A DNA stretch of 64,000 nucleotides from positions 207,986 to 271,985 of the IMG/VR virus record IMGVR_UViG_3300044846_005229; one strand, given 5' to 3'. The first letter of the stretch is position 1. Every line of letters starts with the position of its first letter. Under the pieces are notes generated by a model that ran no database searches, was not told the DNA's origin, and worked only from the letters and a program-made list of their open reading frames with translations. Shown here one piece after another: positions 1,125 through 53,132 of the stretch. The stretch is from a virus. The translations under genes were made by a program, and so were the position numbers.

Positions 1125-1340
1125 TCAATCCAAGGGGAACAACTCGATTGTCACGGTGATGTTTGCCCCCATCTTGAACTTCTCAAAGCCAATATCCCAA
1201 TGTGCATCACCGACACGATAGTGTCTTTGATCCAGGGCTAACGTGCTGCCTTTTGCGGGAATAGCGTTCATCACTACCCGGTAGTCACATTCGATGACTT
1301 TATTTCCGAGGTGGGCGTTTGTGAATGTGATTTCGTACAT
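1125..1340 (-). CDS. small phage protein (71 aa), tandem paralogue of 859-1074
   Basis: A beta-rich small protein beginning MYEITFTNAHLG and ending in IELFPLD. No known family. The downstream neighbour is a clear sequence duplicate of the same length, so this is a tandem gene duplication. The start ATG is preceded by a run of A residues, as in most genes here. Confidence 0.75.
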   Translation of the reverse strand: MYEITFTNAHLGNKVIECDYRVVMNAIPAKGSTLALDQRHYRVGDAHWDIGFEKFKMGANITVTIELFPLD

Positions 1341-1468
1341 TTTTTTGGGTAGAGTAGAGTAATTTTCAGACTGATTCAGTGGGGCTATAGCCTTTGACGT
1401 AGGTTGACATTGACATTTTGTTGGGGAGTTGTTGGGTGTAGTGAGCAGAGTTTGAAGGTTTCAGGAAT

Positions 1469-1774
1469 TCAGCGGGGGACGTGTTCCCTCTTATCAAGTT
1501 CTGCCTTGAGGTTGTCTCTTAAGAATATGAGGTCCCTAACCTGTGAAGCTCGGTACAGGGGGTTAGGCCGGTAAATTCCTAGTTCATTCAATACTTGCTT
1601 GGGTATTATCGCAGTTTCAGGATAACCCTCCAGGCCCTTTTTGTGGACTTCATAGGCATTCCAATCCCAATCATGAAGCACGCTGAGCTGGCCACTAACC
1701 ATTCGAAATACCTTAAGCAGCCTGGGTGTAGGTAGCTTCAAGAGGTAGTCTAGATTGTTGTTGTTTGGGTTCAT
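1469..1774 (-). CDS. hypothetical protein (101 aa)
   Basis: No recognised domain. It begins with an Asn-rich stretch and ends with a charged probable helix (LIFLRDNLKAELDKREHVPR). It lies between the duplicated 71-aa genes and the RNA ligase on the same strand, with about 80-130 bp gaps on each side. Confidence 0.65.
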   Translation of the reverse strand: MNPNNNNLDYLLKLPTPRLLKVFRMVSGQLSVLHDWDWNAYEVHKKGLEGYPETAIIPKQVLNELGIYRPNPLYRASQVRDLIFLRDNLKAELDKREHVPR

Positions 1775-1855
1775 AGTTTCGTTGGGCTCACAGGGTAAGG
1801 AATCCAGGGATTAATCCAGGGGTCATCAACCCAGAGAAATCAATTCGGGGCCATC

Positions 1856-2965
1856 CTACCGGATCCCAAGCAGTTTGTCAAGTTGTTGGGGCCGTAGGTC
1901 TGCTAGCCACTGCCGGAAGGTAGGGTACCTGCCGGAGCGTATTGCGAAACAGGCTGCCGATACTGAGGGGGCATCTTTGAGAATTGCAATGGCGAATTCC
2001 TTTTGCGTTAAGGCTCCATACTTAAGAAGCAGAGTCTCACATAAAGATTGCATCGCGGGGATAGCAGAGTCTAGATGAATCGAAAACTTGTCTCTATATT
2101 CTGGAAAGTGCAATAGAAACTCATCTAAATCGTCACTAAGAAACAATTCCGAAAAGTCTGGGTCGCCATTGTTCCATGCCCGGTGTAGTTGGCAGTATAA
2201 TCTAGACTTAATCTTAACCCTTCCAACCCCATCAAACAATACATAACCTTCATGATTTGAATCTCGCTTTTCAACTTTGGTAAGTACAGAGTCAAGGTCA
2301 CTGAATTCGTAAGATGGGGCCACCACATAGCCATACCACCCAAACTCTTCCAGATCACACTCTTCGAAGTCCTGATCTCGGTCTCGTACTGCTAGTAAGG
2401 GAAGTTTGGGCGCATCGTAGTTAATAACATCTTTATTATCTAGGTGACATAACTCAAAGATGTAGCAAATTGACGGGTCTAGGCATTCCTTTAAGTACCC
2501 TACTTTTTCGAATACATCCCAGAATAATTCATCAAAGGTTTTTTTAGTTTTTCCTACTAGGCCATCCCCTGCTACTGAACCAGAAGTTGAAACGAGCCAT
2601 TGCCCCCTATACTCAAACAATTTAATTAAGGAGCCGGAAAATTTCTCATAAACCTTGGTGCGAGACCAATCTAACTGATGGCAATGGCCCTCACCAATGT
2701 TAAAGAATCTATCGAACGCATATGCAACCAGGCGGTAATACGGCGAGTGATCCCCATCGTTATCAACACGCTCGACCACAGCACCACGGCAGGCACAAAC
2801 CAGCGGATTTGATTTGGATGCTAAAATCGTCCCATATTTCAAATTAAAAAGGTTCGGATACCTCTCATCGCGAGTAACACGAATGTCATACTCGGCCAGC
2901 TCGTCCAGGGCATTGTAACCCCGCTCGTTAAGCCAGTCAATCAAGTAGTGGCGCAAGTTTTCCAT
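1856..2965 (-). CDS. RNA ligase, T4 Rnl1-like
   Basis: A 369-residue ATP-dependent RNA ligase of the T4 Rnl1 type. The AMP-acceptor motif I is K108-F-S-G-S (the family pattern is KxDGS or similar). Further nucleotidyltransferase motifs are FEL at about 170-172, EGYVLFDG from 239 and KIKS at 251-254. Length matches T4 Rnl1 (374). In T4 this enzyme reseals tRNAs cut by host anticodon nucleases. Here it shares the genome with a large tRNA array and a Thg1-like enzyme, so tRNA repair or processing is the likely role (inference). The Asp usual in motif I is replaced by Ser. Confidence 0.85.
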   Translation of the reverse strand: MENLRHYLIDWLNERGYNALDELAEYDIRVTRDERYPNLFNLKYGTILASKSNPLVCACRGAVVERVDNDGDHSPYYRLVAYAFDRFFNIGEGHCHQLDWSRTKVYEKFSGSLIKLFEYRGQWLVSTSGSVAGDGLVGKTKKTFDELFWDVFEKVGYLKECLDPSICYIFELCHLDNKDVINYDAPKLPLLAVRDRDQDFEECDLEEFGWYGYVVAPSYEFSDLDSVLTKVEKRDSNHEGYVLFDGVGRVKIKSRLYCQLHRAWNNGDPDFSELFLSDDLDEFLLHFPEYRDKFSIHLDSAIPAMQSLCETLLLKYGALTQKEFAIAILKDAPSVSAACFAIRSGRYPTFRQWLADLRPQQLDKLLGIR

Positions 2966-3018
2966 GGTTGTAGTATAGGTGGTTTTTTAGTTTGGTGATG
3001 CGGCTTACCGAATGATGG

Positions 3019-3156
3019 TCAGTCGTTGGGGACCAGTTTGCCGTACTCGTCATGTTGACACCTCCATAAGTCAACCGCCCACTCAACACTCAATCGGGTA
3101 GAAAACTTATTAAAGGCTTCGATGGCTTTAGAAGTGGTGGAAAGAGGGTAGGTCAT
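3019..3156 (-). CDS. small hypothetical protein (45 aa)
   Basis: A short frame beginning MTYPLSTTSKAIEAF. Its ATG overlaps the TGA of the upstream 214-aa gene in an ATGA junction (positions 3153-3156), which suggests translational coupling and supports the gene despite its size. Function unknown. Confidence 0.55.
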   Translation of the reverse strand: MTYPLSTTSKAIEAFNKFSTRLSVEWAVDLWRCQHDEYGKLVPND

Positions 3157-3797
3157 GGGCTCGGTACAGTTCGCCTTACAGGGTAAGAACGCCAATTGGT
3201 TGCGAGAGTGGCCTTCTTTTCACCATTAACCATCAAATCCAGAGTCGTAGTGCCCTCATCGTCCCATGGACCGTCATACTCACGGCCGATAGCTAAAGTG
3301 GCTCGATGCTTATAGAGCACTTGCCCTAGGTCTTTTTTGAATTCGTCCAAGTTGAATCTTTCACTAGGTTTGTACACATCGGCCTTAACTTTACCTTCCT
3401 TAATAAGTTGATCCCAGTCGAGGCAATTATAGTTCACCTTTCGGGAAGAAAAGCACTTCCCCTGGAATCCAGACTCTTTGTACTTTTCCCTCCAAGTTGA
3501 TTCCAAGTTAGTGAGACGACGCTTACTACGGATTCTCCTTAGAGTGTAACAATAAGAAGAGGGGTCAGCAGAATTTGCCGCGTTCGGGTGCATCCAAATG
3601 TCTGTGACCACGTACAGACCGGGCTCTACAGGTTGCTGCCGAAAGTGAAGGTAAGGGACTTGGGTCTCATACTTCCAACCATCCTTTGTTTTTACGCCTA
3701 CAGCCGGTACTTGGACGCTGTCTCCTAGTTTCAATAGGATAGCTTGTGTTACAGCTTCAGGAAGCGGTTCCATGGTTTTCGGGGAAGCGTCGTTCAT
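3153..3797 (-). CDS. hypothetical protein (214 aa)
   Basis: No known domain recognised. Soluble and basic, with several Trp and Tyr. The stop overlaps the start of a 45-aa gene by ATGA and the gene sits 20 bp downstream of the 99-aa gene, so it is probably one transcript with 3818-4117 from the promoter at 4148-4176. Confidence 0.75.
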   Translation of the reverse strand: MNDASPKTMEPLPEAVTQAILLKLGDSVQVPAVGVKTKDGWKYETQVPYLHFRQQPVEPGLYVVTDIWMHPNAANSADPSSYCYTLRRIRSKRRLTNLESTWREKYKESGFQGKCFSSRKVNYNCLDWDQLIKEGKVKADVYKPSERFNLDEFKKDLGQVLYKHRATLAIGREYDGPWDDEGTTTLDLMVNGEKKATLATNWRSYPVRRTVPSP

Positions 3798-6921: not shown

Positions 6922-7082
6922 AGCTGCACCCTCCGAAACCCGATAACCCACACCCAAGGGTTCGCTTCCCATGACCCTTCACCATTTATGTATCGGTGGG
7001 AGTGCTTAGGGTAGCTATCATTTTCTGAGACCCATTGAAGGTAGTCATTTCTTTCTGTACGGTGGTCAACGTGCATCATCAT
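6918..7082 (-). CDS. small hypothetical protein (54 aa)
   Basis: Starts at one of three consecutive ATG codons (7076-7082) overlapping the 3' end of the upstream gene. Rich in Trp, Tyr and His. Its stop overlaps the next gene's start (ATGA). Unknown function. Confidence 0.45.
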   Translation of the reverse strand: MMMHVDHRTERNDYLQWVSENDSYPKHSHRYINGEGSWEANPWVWVIGFRRVQL

Positions 7083-7245
7083 TTTTGTTGTTTGTACTCG
7101 CAGCATCCAGCAAGGACTCTACCCGAATCAACCGATTAGAAATGCTAAGCAGAATGTCCGTCAACCCCTCAATCTCCTCATGAATGTCCTGGTGGTGGAA
7201 TCGTAATGGCTTTTGAATTAGCTTATTGAATTTAGATTTTTTCAT
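7066..7245 (-). CDS. small hypothetical protein (59 aa)
   Basis: Begins MKKSKFNKLIQ. The middle (EEIEGLTDILLSISNRLIRVESLLDAA) is a heptad-like amphipathic helix, so a small coiled-coil protein is likely. An alternative start at 7305 would overlap the HNH gene. Confidence 0.5.
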   Translation of the reverse strand: MKKSKFNKLIQKPLRFHHQDIHEEIEGLTDILLSISNRLIRVESLLDAASTNNKNDDAR

Positions 7246-17909: not shown

Positions 17910-18104
17910 TTTTCTATTAGTGTTTGGGGTAGCAAGGGGACCGAAGCCCCCCGCAATGAGTCAGAATGCTATCGCTCAAACGGCGACGGCAGTCCTCTCG
18001 AATTTGACGATTTTGTTAGCGTCTATGTTGTGCTTATGCAAGCGGCTTTCGGTAATTGGCTTGCTGTCGGTCGATTCCAGAGCGGACCCTCGAAAGGGAA
18101 ATGG

Positions 18105-18180
18105 ATCCGGGGCGATTCGAACGCCCGTGTCGCGCAGTAGTGACAACTACCTACACCCAGTTTTTAGCCGTATGGTAGGG
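18105..18180 (-). other. tRNA-like remnant
   Basis: A clear T-arm (GGGCG-TTCGAAT-CGCCC) followed by CGGATCC-A as a 3' acceptor strand, but no matching 5' acceptor GGATCCG and only a six-base loop (TTGTCA) where an Asp-like anticodon GTC might be. Either a decayed tRNA-Asp or part of a tRNA-like element. Confidence 0.35.
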
Positions 18181-18192
18181 CTTTAACAATTA

Positions 18193-18438
18193 TTACCCGT
18201 TACAGTTAAAAGTCGATGTAATCTCATACTGCCTAAGTAAGTTAAACAACTCAGTTTGAAGGTCTTCGAAGCCGCCCACAAGTTGATCCTGAGTGACCGC
18301 ATAGCAAGGACCCACTTTAGAGCCAGCCCAAGGTATGATTTGTTTGTGCTCTAGAATCTTGTTCCTGTACTTAAGAAGTAGGGAGTTAATCCCGGAGGCT
18401 AGCTGAACTTTATCGGATAGAACTATTTGTTTTAACAT
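18193..18438 (-). CDS. hypothetical protein (81 aa)
   Basis: Start at MLKQIVLSDKVQ. Mostly helical, no known domain. An upstream in-frame ATG at 18474 would add a Pro/Thr-rich stretch across a poly-C run and is less likely. Confidence 0.55.
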   Translation of the reverse strand: MLKQIVLSDKVQLASGINSLLLKYRNKILEHKQIIPWAGSKVGPCYAVTQDQLVGGFEDLQTELFNLLRQYEITSTFNCNG

Positions 18439-23548: not shown

Positions 23549-24157
23549 TTAGTTTGAACCCAGAACGAACCGAGCGAATCGCTTCACAACGATGTTTTCT
23601 CCCACAGTAGCAGCGAAGTTCTTGGTATAAGTTTCGATAGTCATCGTGCCATCTTTGATATAAGGTTGGTCCATCAGGGACATTTCCTTAAAGCGTTTGG
23701 CTACACGACCTACAACAATTCTGCTACGCATTGCTTCTGGCTTTTTGGCAAGGTCTTCTTTGCCCATTTCGATTCGAGTCTCGTCCAATAGGATAGACTC
23801 AGGAATGTCGGATATTGAGACATAGCTTACAGAAGGGCACGCCGCAACTTGCATTGCCAAAGTGCGAACGAACTCTTGGAATGGCCCAGATTTTGCCACA
23901 AAATCAGTTTCGCAATTCACTTCGATGAGTACACCGATCTTGCCACCTGTATGGATATAACTGGATACAGTCCCTTCCAGGGTTGTACGGCCAATCTTTC
24001 CATCAGCTAAGACAATACCTTTTTGACGTAGCCAAGTGATTGCCCCGGCTTCGTCGCCTTGGGAGGCTTCCAGTGCTTCTTTGCAAAGCATCATGCCTGC
24101 CCCGGTTTTTTCACGGAGCGCTTTAATTTGTGGAATCGTGGGTTGGGTGTAAGTCAT
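23549..24157 (-). CDS. tsf: elongation factor Ts
   Basis: 202 residues with the EF-Ts N-terminal UBA-like module (IKALREKTGAGMMLCKEALEA) and core signature VNCETDFVAKS, then the dimer-like C-terminal region (IVVKRFARF). EF-Ts recycles EF-Tu by nucleotide exchange. The short form resembles cyanobacterial proteins. The characteristic TGAGMM and TDFV contact residues are present, so it is probably active on host EF-Tu. Rare in phages; fits a genome that also invests in tRNAs. Start context CAAAATGAC. Confidence 0.93.
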   Translation of the reverse strand: MTYTQPTIPQIKALREKTGAGMMLCKEALEASQGDEAGAITWLRQKGIVLADGKIGRTTLEGTVSSYIHTGGKIGVLIEVNCETDFVAKSGPFQEFVRTLAMQVAACPSVSYVSISDIPESILLDETRIEMGKEDLAKKPEAMRSRIVVGRVAKRFKEMSLMDQPYIKDGTMTIETYTKNFAATVGENIVVKRFARFVLGSN

Positions 24158-49697: not shown

Positions 49698-49929
49698 TGG
49701 CGGACCGGAGAATTGAACTCCTATTCCGATAGAATTTTGCTAACCTAAGTTAACAATGCACAGGTATTAATACCTGAGGGGCTATCTCCCAAAGTCTCAA
49801 GAATTCTTGAGACGCTTTTTACCCAGATATTCCGGGCACCATGTTGGCAGTAGATGCTAAGCTACTGGCCTTAGTATTAAAACTGAGGACTTAGACCTGT
49901 GCGTCTTACCTGGATTTCTCCAACCCGCA
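49698..49929 (-). other. interrupted tRNA-like locus A
   Basis: 5' half: acceptor UGCGGGU and a Leu-like D-region (GAGAAATCCAGGTAAGACGC); 3' half: GTTAA-CTTAG, variable arm CTAT-CGGA-ATAG, T arm GAG-TTCAATT-CTC, acceptor GTCCGCC, A73. Halves pair except T1:C72 and A49:G65. About 150 nt separate the halves, including the 114-bp duplicated element. Anticodon is uncertain (GTT of GTTAA is possible). May be an intron-bearing or dead tRNA. Confidence 0.4.
49726..49839 (-). repeat. 114-bp perfect duplication, copy 2
   Basis: Identical to 34190-34303; here it forms the 3' part of the insertion in tRNA-like locus A and also supplies part of its 3' half. Confidence 0.85.
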
Positions 49930-49967: not shown

Positions 49968-50067
49968 GGGAACCTTAAGATTTGAGTTATGGCCAGAAGG
50001 TCATACAAGATGGTTGGGTTTCTATAGCAAAGAAATTTGTAAATTGCTGAACCATCTTAGTTTTGTG
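49968..50067 (-). repeat. tRNA-adjacent repeat 1, copy 1
   Basis: About 100 bp nearly identical to 50505-50598. The minus strand carries CTAAGATGGTTCAGCAAT and AACCATCTTG, which can form a long stem. It follows the 3' end of tRNA-fMet. Confidence 0.75.
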
Positions 50068-50504: not shown

Positions 50505-50598
50505 GGGAACTTTAAGATTTGAGTTATGGCCAAAAAGTCATACAAGATGGTTGTTTTTTCTACCAAAAAGAAAGTTTTTAGATTGCTGAACCATCTTA
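50505..50598 (-). repeat. tRNA-adjacent repeat 1, copy 2
   Basis: Near-identical to 49968-50067, downstream of tRNA-Phe; ends with AAGATGGTTCAGCAATC and an AACCATCTTG partner. A third, weaker relative is at 51962-52026. Confidence 0.7.
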
Positions 50599-50618
50599 GT
50601 TTTGCTATCGCAAAACAA

Positions 50619-51921: not shown

Positions 51922-52034
51922 TTTTTTCGTGTTTTGAACATTCCTAACAAAGTTAGGCTAGATGATTGTTTTTCCAATTTCGAAGGAGTTGATCGCTGAA
52001 TCATCTAAGTTTGCAACTGCAAAACAATGGCAAA

Positions 52035-52145: not shown

Positions 52146-52303
52146 TTGAAGTGGAGAGGCTTGAACTCTCAATGTTAAGATTGCGTCTGGCTGCTACTTA
52201 ACAGGTGGTTTCAACCATGAGCCAGGAAGTTGCTATTAGCATTTACAACCCCATCCGTATCGGCTGATTCCACACCCCCGTATACCAGTTCCGGCACACT
52301 TCT
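52146..52303 (-). other. interrupted tRNA-like locus C, Ser (TGA)-type
   Basis: Class II pattern: acceptor AGAAGTG/CACTTCA (A1:A72 mismatch, six pairs), D arm CCG-GAACTGGTATA-CGG, T arm GAGAG-TTCAAGC-CTCTC, variable arm GTTAAG..CTTAAC. A candidate anticodon arm (GTGG/CCAC with TTGAAA, i.e. TGA) is split by about 55 extra bases that hold GTTG-TAAATGCTAATAG-CAAC. Confidence 0.5.
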
Positions 52304-52637: not shown

Positions 52638-52703
52638 TTGGTGTTAAATTGTCTAGTTTCTGTCAATGGCGTAACCAGTGGCGTTACTACCAGCGACACC
52701 CTT

Positions 52704-52732
52704 AGTATAGGGTCTTGCCCCGGTAAAGTAAA
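52704..52732 (-). promoter_or_regulatory. promoter (TTTACT-17-TATACT)
   Basis: -35 TTTACT, 17-bp spacer, TATACT upstream of tRNA-Ile, after a hairpin CTTTCGC-TAAG-CGAAA. Confidence 0.6.
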
Positions 52733-52843
52733 GGACGGTTTGCCGCCCCCACCTTACGGACTTTTTCGCGTTTTTCGCTTAGCGAAAGTTGCCTTGCGAT
52801 TAAACCTTACCAGGGTTAGCTGGTGGGTTAATCTTAGAGCAAA

Positions 52844-52970
52844 TTGACTACCGAGGACTTGCACCTCGACCCCCTCTGTCCAAAACTACTCGCAGGTACG
52901 GAACTTGGCCTTCGTTCTATCTTACTGCTTTCGCCCAAAGGGACATGCTGACTTCTAACACTCGTAGTCA
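52844..52970 (-). other. interrupted tRNA-like locus D
   Basis: Perfect acceptor TGACTAC/GTAGTCA with A73, T arm CGAGG-TGCAAGT-CCTCG, and a candidate anticodon stem TGTCC/GGACA. The loop between the two anticodon-stem halves holds about 60 nt instead of 7, beginning CTTTGGG and ending GTAGTTTT, with internal stems GCAG..CTGC and GAAC..GTTC. Either an unusual intron-containing tRNA (Lys or Gln guessed from the loop ends) or another structured RNA. Confidence 0.5.
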
Positions 52971-53132
52971 AAGTCCATTTTACGTCAGGGCGGACACACC
53001 CCGTTTGCCTTTGGAAAACCAAAGATTTAACCTACCTAGATTTACCCTCTTACACGATAACTCGTTTTGATGCAATCTCCCGATCTGCAGAGGCAAAGTA
53101 GGCTAGCCCCGTGGATTAATCCCATAGGGCCA

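Follow-up and report, generated by a model that had tools for sequence, protein, structure and literature searches.

Does the tRNA array of a large phage hold a tRNA gene interrupted by a short intron, or an RNA of another kind that has kept the outline of a tRNA? The question is raised by a locus, here called B, in a 64-kb stretch of viral DNA (the window; 207986-271985 in a virus record of 279,339 bases). On its minus strand, at 52845-52970, a 7-bp acceptor-like helix, a D arm and a T arm flank a long insert, which the original prediction took to interrupt an anticodon arm.

A tRNA-shaped locus with a structured insert

ARAGORN placed 17 tRNA genes in the window, all on the minus strand and none of them at B, and a permissive Rfam scan of 52640-53132 (E up to 10) returned zero matches. 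Several elements described in the original prediction were recovered. All 7 pairs of the acceptor TGACTAC/GTAGTCA form on the minus strand, the T arm has a perfect 5-bp stem (CGAGG/CCTCG), and the small insert, for which no intron family was matched (Rfam, E up to 10), has its own GCAG..CTGC and GAAC..GTTC stems, both of which are paired in the comparison of relatives. The locus is also genuinely tRNA-shaped and unusual for a phage, as had been proposed: in the 64 kb, only B joins a 7-bp acceptor to a 5-bp T stem, both perfect, with C56 and A58 and a span of 95-159 nt, and 0 of 10 dinucleotide shuffles of the window do so. A looser score over the acceptor, T and D arms is less exclusive. B reaches 23.2, one match from five 3-base-block shuffles falls in the 23 bin, and two further window loci fall in bins 21 and 25, the latter being a tRNA-Asn gene joined to an RNA of class A (described below).

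Of the eight known sequences, the window copy has the least canonical elbow: it reads AG in the D loop and TGCAA in the T loop, where the other seven of the eight have GG and TTCGA. Folded by itself, the window copy gives no decisive signal (z -1.21), with 26 of 200 shuffles as stable.

Relatives of locus B in other virus records

Family B comprises nine loci in nine virus records, the window's included, with eight distinct sequences. The copy in G003, a 277-kb relative (L030:5424-5548), was found by a long-span script for acceptor, T and D arms in which the insert sequence was unused. An exact 19-mer of the insert matched four IMG/VR contigs, namely L034, the G003 contig, L036 and L037, whose copy is identical to that of G003. 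The conserved part of the insert is called the core here; a degenerate pattern drawn from its 3' half matched 16 contigs, and the 7 that carry B were L034, L036 and L037 together with the new L068, L075, L067 and L079. Most copies were thus found through exact core patterns, so that part of the core conservation reported below is true by construction and the family size is a lower bound.

Two models, R1 from the window copy and three others and R2 from all eight sequences (the window copy being included in both), separate the family from other RNAs. The four copies outside the training of R1 scored 115.0 (L068), 111.4 (L075), 98.9 (L067) and 91.9 bits (L079), and the best R1 match to anything other than B, a tRNA-Leu gene, reached 34.8 bits. 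R2, run over 42 loci, returned the identical set plus a truncated piece of the G003 copy, with all remaining matches at or below 30.2 bits. Four of the B-bearing records measure 279, 277, 195 and 519 kb; the others, of 57, 41, 22, 21 and 11 kb, may be fragments. B is not universal: R1 gave a strong match in only 5 of 14 records and none in the other 9, some of the records being fragments, and G001, G002 (Thg1 95-96% identical) and S-CRM01 had no strong R1 match.

Searches of other collections returned no further copy among the matches listed. The exact 19-mer had 0 matches in cellular genomes, and none of the 22 cellular contigs matched by the degenerate pattern carries B (one weak match, 16.9 bits). 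A search of 292 cyanobacterial genomes at E 1e-5 found none, an empty answer that is uninformative, with only 12 candidates scored per genome among the matches listed. In INPHARED, a collection of isolated phages, blastn with a 1.5-kb query gave no alignment across B among the best 20 of 27 records. The window copy gave 3 partial matches only (E 0.4-5), and the L067 copy gave no match with E up to 1. The G003 copy drew 23 records, of which the 12 among the matches listed all cover only a 27-nt T-arm part (E 5). Plasmids searched with the typed core gave 2 partial matches only (E 1 and 5). Six B loci (the window, L067, L030, L034, L036 and L037) were scanned with Rfam 15, and no family rose above threshold at any of them. 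The result held at gathering thresholds in L030, L034, L036 and L037, and at E up to 10 the L067 copy drew five sub-threshold matches, the nearest in kind being tRNA-Sec (12.3 bits, E 9.4). ARAGORN was silent at B in all seven loci run. Among the papers listed in searches of a literature that covers few subscription journals, no title or abstract opening described an RNA of this kind.

Covariation within a tRNA outline

We aligned the eight distinct sequences to the model, leaving out L037 and the truncated G003 piece as duplicates. Two-sided changes occur in 17 of 35 pairs and 96.0% of cells are paired, with 0 of 500 shuffles doing as well on any of five measures, and pairing falls to 34-43% when the partner is slid by 1-3 columns. 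Since this alignment was fitted to the model, its counts lean towards the structure. A MAFFT alignment of four sequences has two-sided changes in 10 of 37 pairs and 97.2% of cells paired, with shuffle counts of 0/500 for four of the five measures and 1/500 for the fifth. Unconstrained minimum-free-energy (MFE) folds agree with the model in 3 of 8 members and differ from it in G003, L034, L036, L075 and L067.

The covarying arm is P1, which follows nucleotide 26 directly in 8 of 8 copies and is separated from the T stem by 2 nt. P1 and its counterparts are fully paired in the window, G003, L034 and L036, and 2 of its 6 modelled pairs have two-sided changes among the eight sequences. TGTCC/GGACA, which the original prediction read as the two halves of an anticodon stem, are indeed complementary with 59 nt between them, but as an anticodon stem the pairing is not conserved (4 of 5 pairs in G003, 5 of 5 with two wobbles in L034, 2 of 5 in L036) and we rejected it. 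Within the core, P3 varies in 2 of 4 pairs, one-sidedly only in the eight-sequence count and with one two-sided change in the four-sequence count, and P2 (CGAAA/UUUUG) is poorly supported, with 86.8% of cells paired and zero two-sided changes. Four copies have the apical loop GAAGGCCAA and the other four GAAGUACAA, both with palindromic centres. A pairing of GGGC with this loop (GGC/GCC) was dropped, because the loop centre turns to GUAC while GGGC stays unchanged. Overall, the comparison of these sequences shows that the acceptor-like helix, D arm and T arm preserve a tRNA outline, with elbow motifs in 7 of 8 copies, and that a helix of 7-8 bp together with a conserved core of some 57 nt takes the place of the anticodon arm.

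Table 1 Elements of the family B RNA in the window copy, with window positions
Element	Positions	Strand	Evidence
Whole tRNA-shaped RNA (family B), 126 nt	52845..52970	-	136.2 bits with R1; 122.6 bits with R2
Acceptor-like helix, 5' strand TGACTAC	52964..52970	-	all 7 pairs with two-sided changes somewhere in the 8 sequences
Acceptor-like helix, 3' strand GTAGTCA	52845..52851	-	same covariation count as 5' strand
D arm GTGT..GCAT, loop without GG	52945..52961	-	96.9% of cells paired; 1/4 pairs two-sided
P1, 5' strand TCCCTTTG, directly after nt 26	52936..52943	-	7-8 bp in 8/8 copies
P1, 3' strand CAGAGGGG, 2 nt ahead of T stem	52871..52878	-	100% of cells paired
Conserved 57-nt core replacing the anticodon loop	52879..52935	-	85.5% mean pairwise identity
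P3, 5' strand GCAG	52925..52928	-	pairs with 52892-52895; 100% of cells paired
P3, 3' strand CTGC	52892..52895	-	partner of 52925-52928
P4, 5' strand GAAC	52914..52917	-	3/4 pairs with two-sided changes
P4, 3' strand GTTC	52901..52904	-	partner of GAAC
Apical loop, 9 nt, GAAGGCCAA	52905..52913	-	central GGCC; GUAC in 4/8 copies
T arm CGAGG-TGCAAGT-CCTCG	52852..52868	-	4/5 pairs with two-sided changes

Resemblance to T4 RNAC/RNAD and other non-decoding RNAs

The nearest known kind of RNA is the T4 pair of stable RNAs RNAC and RNAD (species 1 and 2). Like these (139 and 119 nt), B would be a small RNA from a phage tRNA cluster, and like rnaC, with its CCGGG-TTCGAAT-CCCGG, it has a T arm near the 3' end. 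In the MFE fold of rnaC, inspected by eye, there is no counterpart to the D arm or the core of B. Over the T4 stretch (L066), R1 gives only tRNA-Leu at 14.4 bits and R2 gives none at E up to 0.01; homology was rejected on this ground, and B therefore resembles RNAC/RNAD but is not filed with them.

B could still be a stable RNA of that type, in which the tRNA-like parts serve only for folding or processing and the arm acts as a scaffold or dimerises through its palindromic loop. The shared place in a tRNA cluster and the canonical T arm of rnaC agree with this, as does the description of the T4 pair as late RNAs 'of yet unknown functions' (PMC9697503). A palindrome is also kept in the loop as GGCC or GUAC, and such centres would suit loop-loop dimerisation. 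This is a suggestion only: the switch from one palindrome to the other may be a single double change, and dimerisation is putative. With neither T4 RNA matched by R1 and none found by R2, we consider this alternative unlikely.

YrlA, a bacterial Y RNA, is likewise a non-decoding RNA with a tRNA-like domain (PMC7790460). An identity with the Ro60/Y RNA system was rejected, as the partner of YrlA, Ro60/TROVE, is encoded in 0 of 9 records, some of which may be fragments; in addition, no Rfam Y RNA is among the matches of the window and L067 copies in the permissive scan. YrlA also carries its ends on another arm and is thus circularly permuted relative to B. The tRNA-like domain of tmRNA combines tRNA-like ends with a long helix in place of the anticodon arm, and B shares this arrangement, but neither the window copy nor the L067 copy has a tmRNA match. 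The window has a separate, permuted tmRNA of cyanobacterial type at 17936-18198 (-) (RF01851 72.8 bits; RF04321 56.1 bits), borne by the phage, and, at 23549-24157 (-), an elongation factor Ts gene (PF00889, E 2.1e-28).

A conserved insert in a diverged tRNA-like body

With tRNAs (RF00005), B shares the acceptor, D and T arms, the elbow motifs and the location in tRNA arrays. It differs in having no anticodon arm, in a variable region of 2 nt in 8 of 8 copies, and in the absence of an encoded CCA in five contigs whose other candidates mostly encode it. RF00005 did not match the B copies of the window and L067 with E up to 10, nor those of L030, L034, L036 and L037 at gathering thresholds.

Instead of a 5-bp anticodon stem with a 7-nt loop, B has a helix of 7-8 bp and the core of about 57 nt; a U would fall at nucleotide 33 in 2 of 8 copies, and no choice of exon junction gives a consistent 7-nt loop. 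Over 28 pairs, mean pairwise identity is 85.5% in the core and 59.3% in the tRNA-like body. The 23 core columns covered by neither search pattern average 86.5%, and 11 of these 23 are invariant, compared with 12 of 53 columns in the body. A conserved core within a diverged body is the reverse of what is expected for a dispensable intron. A catalytic intron might show such conservation, but the window and L067 copies match no intron model and a consistent anticodon loop is missing. Like bacterial tRNA group I introns, the insert occupies the place of the anticodon arm in a tRNA-like gene; unlike them, it has a 57-nt core and matched no intron family in the window and L067 copies (E up to 10). 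The group I intron model in particular had no match at the window copy and is not among the five weak L067 matches.

The 3' ends point the same way. In L036, L067, L068, L075 and L079, an encoded CCA is present in 77 of 81 non-B tRNA candidates (34/34 in L067, 14/16 in L068, 10/10 in L075, 7/8 in L079 and 12/13 in L036; script candidates above a score cut-off) and in 0 of 5 B copies. In the cyanophage-like arrays (L034, L033, L030, the window and L006), 1 of 83 candidates encodes CCA, so its absence from B is uninformative there. The seventh acceptor pair (7-66) is unpaired, as A.A, in 5 of 8 copies, the five from the CCA-encoding contigs, and the flanks of these same copies prolong the acceptor into a longer interrupted helix. 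Shuffles as stable or more numbered 0 of 200 in L036, L075, L067 and L079 and 3 of 200 in L068, where the extension is weakest (2 of 15 ordinary tRNA flanks fold as well). The three cyanophage-like copies had no extension (shuffle shares 0.63-0.87). On these results there seem to be two subtypes of B, free and tRNA-like in the cyanophage-like arrays and stem-extended elsewhere. Another CCA-less tRNA-like gene, each time followed by TTGCTCTC, is present at L036:2230-2301 and L068:3319-3388, where the neighbouring candidates mostly encode CCA. Taken together, these features of B speak against charging and decoding, as far as sequence can tell.

The short tRNA intron of the original prediction is not supported by these results. 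In its most complete form, a tRNA gene would carry a short intron in its anticodon arm, an unknown endonuclease would excise it and a phage ligase would seal the exons. The tRNA-like 5' and 3' parts invite such a reading, and RNA-repair genes are at hand. The window's genome encodes a T4 Rnl1-like RNA ligase (RNA_lig_T4_1, PF09511, E 1.3e-14), found in 5 of the 9 records searched, the window's genome included, which could seal exons, and a Thg1-like gene (PF04446, E 2e-27) lies about 0.5 kb upstream of B. But the insert is conserved and the supposed exons diverged, a consistent anticodon loop and U33 are missing along with a variable region longer than 2 nt, CCA is absent where most other candidates encode it, and five copies are embedded in a longer stem. 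RtcB is encoded in 0 of 9 records, and RtcB-based splicing was rejected for that reason. We therefore set aside a spliced tRNA intron as the main reading and judge it improbable. The ligase gene of the L036 record may itself be split (L052, from G004, 1324-3274): the ligase ORF at 1324-1914 is followed by an opposite-strand ORF, GIY-YIG-like by eye, and then by a plus-strand ORF.

Position within tRNA arrays

All nine B loci have a tRNA gene nearby. The first tRNA gene upstream of B is tRNA-Glu in three of them (window, G003 and L037), and the neighbours differ in the other contigs. Upstream of B, the stretch GCCTCTRCAGATCGGGAGATWGCATCAAAACGAGTYATCGTG is conserved between the window (~53053-53094, minus strand) and G003 (L030, just upstream of 5424). 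Location inside tRNA arrays and the recurrent tRNA-Glu would be natural for a cis-acting element of the operon transcript, for processing punctuation or antitermination, yet the discrete tRNA-like ends, the elbow motifs and the varying neighbours elsewhere make such an element very improbable. A decaying tRNA pseudogene or a chance fold, to which the non-canonical T loop of the window copy might point, has a negligible chance, being contradicted by covariation in 8 sequences and by the lack of any perfect acceptor/T-stem geometry in 10 shuffles.

A candidate role as a tRNA mimic

We probably see in B, though well short of certainty, a family of non-decoding phage tRNA mimics, whose elbow brings a tRNA-handling factor to the conserved arm, with the RNA as decoy or scaffold. 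B would be transcribed within the polycistronic tRNA-array transcript. In the cyanophage-like arrays it would be cut out at its tRNA-like ends, and in the other subtype it would remain on its longer terminal stem; in either case it would be neither spliced nor charged. The tRNA elbow would then draw in a tRNA-handling factor, be it a nuclease, a modification enzyme, the ribosome or an RNA-repair enzyme, and place it at the conserved arm; B might bind or sequester this factor and so work as a decoy or scaffold during infection.

An RNA-repair setting has been described for jumbo phages (PMC7824862), and the Rnl1-like ligase together with Thg1 fits that setting. YrlA, itself a tRNA-like RNA, has been suggested to inhibit an anticodon nuclease competitively (PMC7790460). 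It is on account of the RNA-repair genes and this suggested inhibition that action as a decoy or scaffold on the tRNA machinery is our preferred mechanism. The decoy step taken alone is the least certain part of the proposal and may have perhaps one chance in three of holding.

Further insert-bearing tRNA-like RNAs in the arrays

Other tRNA-like RNAs with inserts occur in the same arrays. Class A is tRNA-Leu-like and 154-157 nt long; its anticodon arm carries an insert of about 60 nt and its variable arm a 17-nt loop. It lies at 52147-52303 (-) in the window, L001:8135-8291, L002:7668-7824, L033:9816-9969 (-) and, in S-CRM01, L006:7972-8127 (-). A pseudoknot is suggested by complementary segments, which read CTGGCT/AGCCAG in the window copy and, in both S-CRM01 and G003, CTAGCT/AGCTAG. 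The S-CRM01 site carries no annotation and only 4 of 7 acceptor pairs form there; as S-CRM01 is an isolated phage, class A is testable in it. Classes C, D and G (L005:10856-10966 (-), L005:11075-11200 (-) and L039:346-462 (+); 111-127 nt) have a common insert module, in which CAGCAA comes after a hairpin, although their three tRNA bodies differ. The class C core is present in 13 viral contigs, 12 of which have a D copy within the stretch examined. Class E (L002:8036-8151 (+) and L033:7884-8001 (-); 116-118 nt) has two hairpins in its insert and compensatory acceptor changes between the two phages. Class F (L033:8414-8571 (-), 158 nt) has a very long insert; by eye, its arm CCTGGG-CACATTA-CCCAGG, in which position 33 is A, looks intact, and a segment farther downstream, CAAC-CTGATCA-GTTG, looks like the anticodon arm of an Ile(GAU) tRNA. 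Classes F and G were each seen in a single phage contig, the other four (A, C, D and E) in at least two.

Two repeated stretches were also seen. One of about 117 nt, ATGGTGCCCGGAATATCTGGG...CTATCGG by eye, lies within a tRNA-like gene in the window (~49700-49880, minus strand) and alone in L001 (~7050-7160), as if it were an insertable element. The other, AAGATGGTTCAGCAA...CAACCATCTT with variants, recurs in the window (~50545-50600, 50010-50060 and 51960-52008, minus strand) and in L005 (near 11050 and 11370, minus strand), and in several cases stands, by eye, after a short hairpin 3' of a tRNA gene.

The presence of other insert-bearing classes in the same arrays leads us to propose an RNA class rather than a single locus. 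Tentatively, and with more doubt than confidence, large phages may carry several non-decoding tRNA-shaped families (B, A and C-G) with paralogous inserts, jointly acting as decoys or effectors on host tRNA machinery, and B may self-dimerise via GGCC/GUAC.

Family B is a conserved, covarying RNA family, with no match in Rfam 15, that joins a tRNA elbow to a strongly conserved arm and that annotation programs overlook, ARAGORN in seven loci and Rfam in the six scanned. Some phage tRNA-like genes may supply no codons at all. B offers a concrete handle on the role of stable RNAs of the T4 RNAC/RNAD type, and also on how phages act upon host tRNA nucleases, repair enzymes and ribosomes.
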